Of a DNA stretch of 20,322 nucleotides, positions 10,783 through 19,402 are shown one piece after another. A program made the translations under genes and the position numbers. Every line of letters starts with the position of its first letter. The first letter of the stretch is position 1. Origin of the DNA: a virus; the IMG/VR virus record IMGVR_UViG_3300044678_001943, positions 1 to 20,322 of that record; one strand, given 5' to 3'. Below the pieces are notes generated by a model, which did not search any database, was not told where the DNA came from, and saw only the letters and a list, made by a program, of their open reading frames with translations.

Positions 10783-11612
10783 GCGTCAAAGCAACAACTT
10801 GGGCGTGGTACGACAGTAAGGCCGAGGGCGCTGACTTGCTGGTTTTGTTGGCCCTTGCCGACTTTGCTGACGAAAGCGGTCGGTGCTTTGGAAGCTGGGG
10901 AACCATGCAGAAGAAGACCAAGCTGGCTCGCAGCACTATTGCCCGCTGCATCAAGCGTCTCGAGGCAAGCGGCGAGCTGACAGTTATTGAGGGCGCCAAA
11001 ACGCTGAACGGGCGCAACCTCGCCACGGTCTGGCAGCTTCCGGTTAAGGGCAGGTGTCAGAATGAGACCGGTGTCAGCGTGACATTACCCCCGTCCGATT
11101 CTGACACTACCCCCGGTGTCAGCGTGACATTACCCCCGTCCGATTCTGACACCCCAACACAAAGTAACGTCTTAAAACGGTCATTAACTACCGCTCCGGC
11201 GATTTCATCGCCTTCGCATCCTATTTCGGAAAAGGAAGCACCCAAACCAAAACGCGCCACCGCTCCCAAATTCGACCCAGCATCTATTCTGCTGCCCCAT
11301 GGTCCGGGCTTCCAAAAATGGTGGCTGCATTTCATTGAGCACCGCAGCAACCCAATCAAGGGTCGCCGCAACCCATTAACGCCGCTCGCCGCCAAGATCA
11401 TCTTGGGCGAGCTGGCTGCGGTCAACGAACAGCAAGCCGTTGAATCCATCAAGAAGTGCATCGCCGCGGGCTGGGTTAAGCCGTTCCCGCCCGAGCCGCC
11501 AGCCAAGGCCACCATCGTTGAGCTGCCACCCCAAGGCCGCCCCAAACAAACCGCCCTTGAAAAACACCTCGCCGAACAGCGCGAGCAGTTCGCAAAGGAG
11601 AACGCAGCCTAA
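10779..11612 (+). CDS. Phage replication initiator, lambda O-like with HTH domain (277 aa)
   Basis: Residues about 18-86 match the helix-turn-helix domain of phage O-like initiators ([13 protein letters not shown], then [18 protein letters not shown]). A flexible middle contains a perfect 15-residue repeat unit starting [13 protein letters not shown] at residues 98 and 113. The C-terminal half (about 155-250) is a second helical domain that could contact the helicase, ending in a charged tail. Origin-like DNA repeats lie inside the gene at 11053-11152, as in lambda. A DnaB-type helicase gene lies about 1.6 kb downstream. The initiator call is well supported by domain and context; the exact family is not. 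Confidence 0.75.
11053..11152. repeat. Iteron-like repeats inside the initiator gene, probable replication origin
   Basis: Two 38-bp identical units (11070-11107, 11115-11152) lie 45 bp apart. Each starts with the dyad TGTCA-GCG-TGACA and ends with TTCTGACAC. A further GTGTCAGAA at 11054-11062 is the exact reverse complement of those ends. At least seven TGTCA half-sites are present, and the following bases (11153-11200) are less GC-rich. This layout resembles lambda ori inside gene O. That the initiator binds here is inferred. Confidence 0.6.
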
Positions 11613-17349: not shown

Positions 17350-17471
17350 CTTTAATTGACGGCTCAAGCGGGTTCTTGCCGCGGTTCATGTGGTGTGGCC
17401 GCGCGGACATTCCGGGGATGCCCAGCTCCAGCGCGCAAGACGACTGGGGCGCCGTCACTATTTTCCAATGA
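17346..17471 (+). CDS. Tiny hypothetical protein (41 aa)
   Basis: The reading frame begins in an ATGA overlap and ends in another. It contains M-W-C-G-R-A-D-I-P-G-M-P and D-D-W-G-A-V. No family and no ribosome site beyond coupling. It is included because it bridges two coupled genes without a gap. Confidence 0.45.
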   Translation: MTLIDGSSGFLPRFMWCGRADIPGMPSSSAQDDWGAVTIFQ

Positions 17472-17671
17472 TCTCTTGGCCACCCCAAAACTTCCGCGTC
17501 GAAGTAGACGGCATCGGCACCTGCCGAGCGCTGTACGTTGTCACCCAGGGCGGCCTTGAGAACGACTACGTCACCGTCTGCCGCGAAGATAACGGCCGGT
17601 GGCTGACCGCGCGCATCGACCAGCTCGCCTGCGCGGAGAATCCGACTTTGGACATTTTGGGCGCTGGCTAG
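17468..17671 (+). CDS. Small hypothetical protein ending inside a palindrome (67 aa)
   Basis: The protein reads M-I-S-W-P-P-Q-N-F-R-V-E-V-D-G, then a probable small beta domain (C-R-A-L-Y-V-V-T-Q, Y-V-T-V-C-R-E, W-L-T-A-R). It is the last gene of the early/replication operon. Its stop codon (17669-17671) lies inside the left arm of the 35-bp inverted repeat, so the last four or five codons are part of a hairpin. Function unknown. Confidence 0.55.
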   Translation: MISWPPQNFRVEVDGIGTCRALYVVTQGGLENDYVTVCREDNGRWLTARIDQLACAENPTLDILGAG

Positions 17672-17731
17672 GCAATTCGTAACAACGGTCCTGGGGAGGA
17701 CCGTTGTTACGAATTGCCTAGCCAGCGCCCA
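17658..17731. repeat. Perfect inverted repeat, 35-bp arms with GGGG loop
   Basis: Bases 17658-17692 and 17697-17731 are exact reverse complements, separated only by GGGG. As RNA this gives an extremely stable 35-bp hairpin; as DNA, a potential cruciform. It covers the end of the last early gene and precedes terL. No clear T-run follows on the + strand (ATTTACATTTTAG). It may stop transcription, be cleaved by RNase III, mark a packaging site, or be an assembly or amplification artefact. Confidence 0.95.
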
Positions 17732-17741
17732 TTTACATTTT

Positions 17742-17779
17742 AGAGGAAGGAGCGCCGCGGAGTCGGCGCAGTGGAGTGA
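17742..17779 (+). promoter_or_regulatory. Hairpin-bridged ribosome binding site for terL
   Basis: AGAGGAAGGA (17742-17751) is too far from the GTG start at 17780 for normal use. Between them lies the hairpin GCGCCG / CGGCGC (17752-17757, 17764-17769). Folding removes 18 nt and leaves about 10 nt, near-ideal spacing. A weaker GGAG at 17773-17776 is too close to the start. Phage T4 has precedents for hairpin-bridged sites. Confidence 0.45.
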
Positions 17780-19402
17780 GTGAACGAACATCAGACACGG
17801 TTTAAGCCGTCGCCGCACCCTGTCATGCAGGTCGATCTCGACTTGCTCGAGAAACTGGGGCCGGACGAAGGCTGGAAATACTTAAAAACGAGGGAAGAAC
17901 TGATCGCCCGCGAGGCATCAGACCCGTTTCGCTATGGCTACATCCCGCCGGTGTGGAAGCGCGCGTCAGAGCTGCTTGAAAAGCACCGCGAGATCCTCGT
18001 CATGGGCGGAAACCGCAGCGGCAAGACCGAGTGGGCGGCCAAGGAGGTCATCAAGACTATGTATTCCAAGCCCGGGGCCGTTGTCTGGTGCTTTCAAACC
18101 ACTGCTCCGAACAGCATTGAGCTTCAGCAGCCGCGCATCTGGAAATACATGCCGCCGGAGTGGCGTAACGCGCGCAAAGGACAGGTCACCAACATCACCT
18201 ACAGCGTCAAGGGCGGATTTACTGAGGGAAAATTCGTTGCGCCGAACCAAAGCATCTGCGTGTTTCGTAATTACGCGCAAGATCCGAGCACAATTGAAGG
18301 TGGAGAGGTCGATTTCTGCCACGCAGACGAATTGGTGCCTCTTGATGTTTTAGAGACGTTGCGATTTCGCCTCGTAGACAGAAACGGCAAGTTGGCCGTC
18401 ACCTTCACCCCAGTGCAAGGCTGGTCGCCGACCGTGGCCGACTATTTGTCTGGCGCCAAGACCGTCACCGATACGGACGCCGAGCTGCTGCCCCTCAAAA
18501 ACGACAAAGGCGAGATCTCCGGCTACGACAAAGTGCCCATTGAGCAGATGAATCCGAAAGGTCGCCCGATCCTTTACTTCCACACCCAAAGCAATCCTTG
18601 GGCCGGCTGGTCTCGGATGAAAAAAGAGCTGCAGAGCGAGACGAAGGAAAAAATCCTCTGCCGCGCTTACGGCGTCCCAACCAAAGCCATCAGCGGCCGC
18701 TTTCCCTTGTTCAATCCCAAGGTCCACGTCATCCGCGCCTCGGATGTCCCGCAAGGCACCCGCTACCATTGGGTCGATCCGGCGTCTGGCAAAAACTGGG
18801 CGATGATTTGGACGGTGCATGACACTGCCGGCCGCATCGTTGTCTACCGCGAGTGGCCCGACCAAACGTCATACATAGAGGGCATTGGTTACGCCGGCGA
18901 GTGGGCGCTTCCCGATGGCAAGAAGCTCGACGGCAAGCCCGGACCCGCGCAGCAAGACTTCGGCTTCGGCCTTGAGCGCTACAAAGACGAGATCCTGCGC
19001 GTTGAAGGCGGCGAGGAAATCTTTGAGCGGTGGATGGATTCGCGTTATGGCAACGCCCGCACGCTCGGCAAGGAATCCCCAACGACCCTCATCGACGAGA
19101 TGGCCGACCTCGGCATGCTCTTCACGGCGACACCGGGCGACAGCATCGATGAGGGCGTCAGCATGATCAATGACGCCCTGTCATACAATCCCGAGAAGCC
19201 GGTGGACGCGCGCAACCAGCCGAAGCTGTACATCAGCGAAAACTGCAAAAATGTCATCTACGCCCTACAAACTTACACTGCGGCTGACGGTAAAAAGGGA
19301 GCAACCAAGGACTTCGTCGATCTGCTTCGTTACGTTTGCCTCTCCGACGCCATCAACGTCGAGGGTGACATCCTGCGCAGCCACGGAGGAGGCAGCTACT
19401 GA
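17780..19402 (+). CDS. terL: Terminase large subunit (packaging ATPase/nuclease)
   Basis: This 540-residue protein is the motor that cuts and translocates phage DNA into proheads. The ATPase domain has Walker A G-G-N-R-S-G-K-T (76-83), V-D-F-C-H-A-D-E (177-184) as Walker B with Glu184 as candidate catalytic residue, and A-V-T-F-T-P-V-Q-G-W at about 206-215 as motif III. The RNase-H-like nuclease starts around 328 with H-W-V-D-P-A-S-G-K-N-W (Asp333), and later acidic residues follow. The length is normal. GTG at 17780 is the first usable start after a stop; an internal ATG at 17825 is possible. It follows the palindrome directly, with no small subunit immediately upstream. Confidence 0.93.
   Translation: MNEHQTRFKPSPHPVMQVDLDLLEKLGPDEGWKYLKTREELIAREASDPFRYGYIPPVWKRASELLEKHREILVMGGNRSGKTEWAAKEVIKTMYSKPGAVVWCFQTTAPNSIELQQPRIWKYMPPEWRNARKGQVTNITYSVKGGFTEGKFVAPNQSICVFRNYAQDPSTIEGGEVDFCHADELVPLDVLETLRFRLVDRNGKLAVTFTPVQGWSPTVADYLSGAKTVTDTDAELLPLKNDKGEISGYDKVPIEQMNPKGRPILYFHTQSNPWAGWSRMKKELQSETKEKILCRAYGVPTKAISGRFPLFNPKVHVIRASDVPQGTRYHWVDPASGKNWAMIWTVHDTAGRIVVYREWPDQTSYIEGIGYAGEWALPDGKKLDGKPGPAQQDFGFGLERYKDEILRVEGGEEIFERWMDSRYGNARTLGKESPTTLIDEMADLGMLFTATPGDSIDEGVSMINDALSYNPEKPVDARNQPKLYISENCKNVIYALQTYTAADGKKGATKDFVDLLRYVCLSDAINVEGDILRSHGGGSY

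Follow-up and report, generated by a model that had tools for sequence, protein, structure and literature searches.

The window, that is, the whole 20,322-nucleotide stretch of viral DNA that was analysed (IMG/VR record IMGVR_UViG_3300044678_001943), carries genes of replication and recombination to the left of the locus, namely those for DnaB, a Gp2.5-like SSB, a RusA-like nuclease and an exonuclease, and the gene for the terminase large subunit, terL, to its right (17780..19402, + strand; PHROG 2, E 1.5e-9). By this gene content, the early/late border under which an earlier note described the site is a fair label. The early block ends with a small gene of ~67 aa (17469..17671, + strand; C-terminus ENPTLDILGAG*), which was taken from the list of open reading frames, aligned with its relatives by tblastn and given a start codon from an ATGA overlap with the preceding ORF. 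Elsewhere in the window, a perfect direct repeat of 40 bp with a spacing of 45 lies within a replication-initiation-like gene (11068-11152) and possibly represents origin iterons.

The final codons of the small gene and its TAG stop (17669-17671) are encoded by the left arm of a perfect inverted repeat of 74 bp. The two arms (17658-17692 and 17697-17731) are 35 nt each, 100% complementary and separated by GGGG (17693..17696), and 48 bp separate the right arm from the GTG of terL at 17780. The geometry given in the earlier note (35-bp arms, a 4-nt loop, overlap with a stop codon and a position about 50 bp before terL) is borne out by these coordinates. This is the sole perfect inverted repeat with arms that long within the window, and in random sequence of the window's composition the expected number of repeats with arms of 35 bp or more and a spacer of 0-10 is ~5.5e-16.

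All parts of the element are given on the + strand. From the outside inwards, the left arm consists of the 5' strand of an outer stem, TGGGCGCTGGCT (17658..17669), which is conserved in the class I relatives described below, the 5' strand of an ancestral internal loop, AGGCAATTCGTAACAA (17670..17685), to which allele comparison points as the copied template, and the 5' strand of an inner stem, CGGTCCT (17686..17692). In the right arm, the 16-nt tract TTGTTACGAATTGCCT (17704..17719), an exact complement of the left arm, occupies the place where the parent allele has the 10-nt AGCGCTAACC, and is followed by the 3' strand of the outer stem, AGCCAGCGCCCA (17720..17731). A T-rich tail, TTTACATTTTA (17732..17742), comes next, most relatives being T-rich on the same strand. 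The gap to terL then holds GAGGAAGGAG (17743..17752), which from its sequence resembles a ribosome-binding site and probably serves as one; a similar site is missing in relatives whose terL begins ~12 nt past the hairpin. Between this site and the terL start lies a small 6-bp hairpin, GCGCCG/CGGCGC (17752-17769), which is confined to relatives with the longer spacer.

The hairpin in related phages

Relatives were collected by searches with the outer stem around any middle, with terL and with the upstream ORF, and more than 90 distinct contexts from uncultured phages were gathered. Several of the 81 matches to the outer-stem pattern (e.g. L043, L056, L058, L061, L064 and L080) have unrelated middles and were excluded, being taken for unrelated hairpins or chance matches. 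A GC-rich hairpin stands upstream of terL in 78 of the 79 relatives that have enough upstream DNA, and it is imperfect in every relative except L004, a contig near-identical to the window. The remaining close relative, L127, is without the hairpin, which is therefore dispensable. In the ~256 nt before its terL, L127 has the upstream gene in a third version that ends NPTMDIANE* and directly overlaps the terL start. Each genome has one hairpin site (14 further records of 12.5 to 48 kb were searched whole), ruling out a dispersed repeat element. One related phage contig also carries repeated TGACAAATTGTCA units that produce nested inverted repeats (L049:9919-10003).

The exact 33-nt left arm is matched in eight other IMG/VR contigs. 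Only L004 has the perfect palindrome; in the other seven (L003 and L005-L010) the right arm reads AGGACCG-AGCGCTAACC-AGCCAGCGCCC. This parent form is ~68 nt long, with internal-loop strands of 16 and 10 nt. It belongs to class I, in which a 12-bp outer stem is followed by an asymmetric internal loop, a 7-bp inner stem and a GGGG-type cap, and whose alleles share, with small variants, the right internal-loop strand AGCG(C/T)(C/T)AACC. Class II has an outer stem of ~14 bp and two hairpins, forming a three-way junction, and the first of these hairpins is GGGG-capped as well. The predicted folding energy is about -72 kcal/mol for the window allele versus -39 kcal/mol for the parent form, so that on this prediction the window allele retains and strengthens the stem.

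Standard pairs fill 96-97% of the cells in the aligned stems versus 32-46% when the partners are slid, and several pairs have changed on both sides, including U-A / C-G exchanges in both classes. G-U cells outnumber A-C cells on the + strand (28 versus 11, although a single fixed pair supplies 13 of the 28), and the wobble pairs thus speak for RNA of the + strand. In a control with shuffles, neither the number of doubly changed pairs nor that of pair types was clearly exceeded by the real alignment. Covariation is also weaker proof of selection here because template switching can itself create paired changes. The covariation is modest, and it supports conservation of the hairpin rather than proving it.

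By DNA, no match was found among the nearest known phages, and by terL protein only Phage C75C1 matched among them, at 34% identity; a class I hairpin model found nothing in the 13.6 kb around its terL. A search of bacterial genomes with terL, aimed at the host, found no relative. The elements of L070, L087 and L054 gave no match in Rfam, and the window gave only miRNA-precursor models below thresholds, as expected for any long hairpin. No described hairpin upstream of a terminase was found in the literature.

A distant copy of the hairpin is present on the minus strand of L054 (4341-4419, E 5e-8), and terL of this phage has no significant tblastn match with that of the window. By ORF reading, the copy sits between replication genes and the likely terS and terL; it has a similar ribosome-binding-site region and a T-poor tail. 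This copy suggests that the hairpin has been transferred between phages.

Candidate roles of the hairpin

A tail with at least 5 T in 8 nt adjoins the hairpin in 73 of 93 contexts on the + strand and in 15 of 93 on the - strand. The T-rich tail is broken by A or C, and both L054 and some relatives (GATCTACTTCG) have only a weak one. In many relatives terL begins ~12 nt past the hairpin; a promoter in so short a gap is therefore unlikely, and terL would be read through the hairpin. The fixed position, the stop codon in the left arm, the T-rich tail, the read-through into terL and the copy in L054 favour a role in the rightward mRNA, where the hairpin probably works either as a leaky terminator or as a processing structure. 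It would end the early mRNA and separate off the variable gene slot and terL.

A stricter version, in which the hairpin is an intrinsic terminator that closes the early operon and terL is reached by read-through or antitermination, is conceivable from the sequence and somewhat doubtful. The GC-rich stem, the stop codon within it and the T-rich tail on the gene strand are features of such terminators, but the tail is interrupted: no relative has an unbroken long T run, several relatives have GATCTACTTC, and a consensus terminator scan did not call the site. Moreover, where terL is only ~12 nt on, a promoter of its own would not fit.

The analogy with phage T7 points, more tentatively, to an RNase III processing site, of which the perfect allele would be a longer double-stranded substrate. 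In T7, early genes 1.0 and 1.1 are separated by R1.1, a structured RNA of 60 nt whose internal loop is asymmetric (4/5; PMC6121014). The parent form, at ~68 nt, likewise has two stems, an asymmetric internal loop and a capped upper stem, it is comparably placed where early genes end, and in L054 the hairpin is present without a T-rich tail. However, its internal loop (16/10) is much larger than that of T7 R1.1, class II has a three-way junction instead, and the perfect allele is a continuous 35-bp stem. Processing, furthermore, does not need the T-rich tail found in most relatives.

A site acting in DNA is improbable, whether as a cos/pac packaging start, as a replication signal or as a place of recombination at which the genes between hairpin and terL are exchanged. 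In its favour, these genes vary (none, a QueC module, GP88, DUF5843 and others), and several combinations of hairpin class with the genes on its two sides are seen. Against it, each genome has a single site, and no second hairpin occurs at the terL end of the inserts, so that there is no cassette structure and the hairpin is not a cassette site. For the same reasons an attC-like integron cassette site was rejected. The packaging signal proposed in the earlier note finds no support when contig ends are compared: few lie within 250 nt of the hairpin, none of these is recurrent, and contigs of 34-48 kb pass through it. The contents of the slot itself were read in L005, L093, L171, L168 and L198, where it holds a QueC-containing module, GP88, DUF5843, a PAPS-reductase-like protein or nothing. 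The QueC module also has a QueD-like start, MKYEITKTYRFEAAHSL, and a further protein without a match, and the PAPS-reductase-like protein, which has no Pfam match, is named from sequence only. The genes of the slot are possibly DNA-modification genes.

Origin of the perfect form

The parent and window alleles differ solely in that AGCGCTAACC of the parent is replaced by TTGTTACGAATTGCCT; the 46 nt to the left and the 12 nt to the right are identical. The new tract is bounded by the 7-bp inner and the 12-bp outer stems. The 10-nt right loop strand occurs, with small variants, in class I alleles that have several different left arms and is therefore ancestral. The imperfect parent allele from which a quasipalindrome template switch would start exists in L003 and L005-L010, and the imperfect form is the ancestral one, ancestry being judged by parsimony without a tree. 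On these allele comparisons, perfection is a derived, recent and mutational state that bears the signature of a quasipalindrome template switch.

The perfecting of inverted repeats by template switching was originally observed in phage T4 and in yeast (PMC7202029; PMC8604942). On the parent quasipalindrome, the nascent strand of phage DNA synthesis would finish the inner stem and then switch template to the complementary left arm. It would copy 16 nt of that arm, replacing the 10-nt right loop strand, and a switch back within the outer stem would leave both arms perfect. Two switch points, within the inner and the outer stem respectively, account for everything. The outcome of one such switch is seen in the comparison of alleles, from which we infer the polymerase event itself. 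The change falls past the upstream stop and before terL, and therefore no protein is altered. Over 3,865 bp, a single base separates L004 from the window: loop position 17696 is C instead of G, so that the stem would gain a 36th pair and the loop would shrink to 2 nt. Either template switching has here gone one step further, or the centre of the palindrome was wrongly sequenced or assembled.

An assembly or amplification artefact, which the earlier note had kept among its options and which would arise by fold-back copying of the left arm, is improbable. The sole difference between the two palindrome contigs does sit in the loop, as it also would if assemblers mishandled a palindrome centre, and both contigs could come from one sample. 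But they overlap with different ends and both contain the palindrome, a simple fold-back would run past the outer stem into upstream sequence whereas the right flank is regained precisely from the outer stem on, and the switch points coincide with the inverted repeats of the parent allele.

Taken as a whole, the perfect palindrome is with good confidence explained as a recent, derived allele of a conserved intergenic hairpin that probably acts in RNA. The recent origin that had been listed as one possibility agrees with the imperfect state of all relatives but L004 and with the single template switch that turns the imperfect form into the perfect one. That the absence of mismatches implies function does not follow; a function is supported for the conserved hairpin but not for its perfection. 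The perfect palindrome is recent and ordinary in mechanism.

Meaning and comparison with known systems

The locus offers a clean natural case of a phage hairpin perfected by one template switch, in which both the parent and the product allele are seen, and a warning that a perfect palindrome alone is not a sign of selection for perfection. The interest for follow-up lies in the conserved hairpin beneath the palindrome, which has no Rfam family and would allow early/late control to be tested in a group of uncultured phages that occur in many metagenomes, at the border between their replication and packaging genes. As a tentative proposal, classes I and II, both GGGG-capped, may form an undescribed structured phage RNA family. 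In this group of uncultured phages, the family would govern the passage from early genes to terL; it would also have been acquired by an unrelated phage and been repeatedly remodelled by template switching.

Three known systems invite comparison. In the quasipalindrome template switches of the Ripley model (T4 rIIB, yeast CYC1 and E. coli thyA), as here, one arm is copied from the other to give a perfect repeat, and both switch points lie in paired segments. The tract in the window differs in being longer (16 nt replacing 10), noncoding and from an uncultured phage and, unlike the cases from mutation assays, its origin is deduced from alleles. Rho-independent terminators at the ends of phage operons share with the hairpin a GC-rich stem that overlaps the last stop and, in most relatives, a T-rich coding-strand tail, but the tail here is interrupted, and the GGGG cap and the internal loop or junction are conserved beyond what a terminator needs. 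The RNase III hairpins of T7 (R1.1 and others) likewise have an asymmetric internal loop and stand between phage early genes, whereas the hairpin described here has a larger internal loop, a class with a three-way junction and a T-rich tail; the likeness is one of structure.
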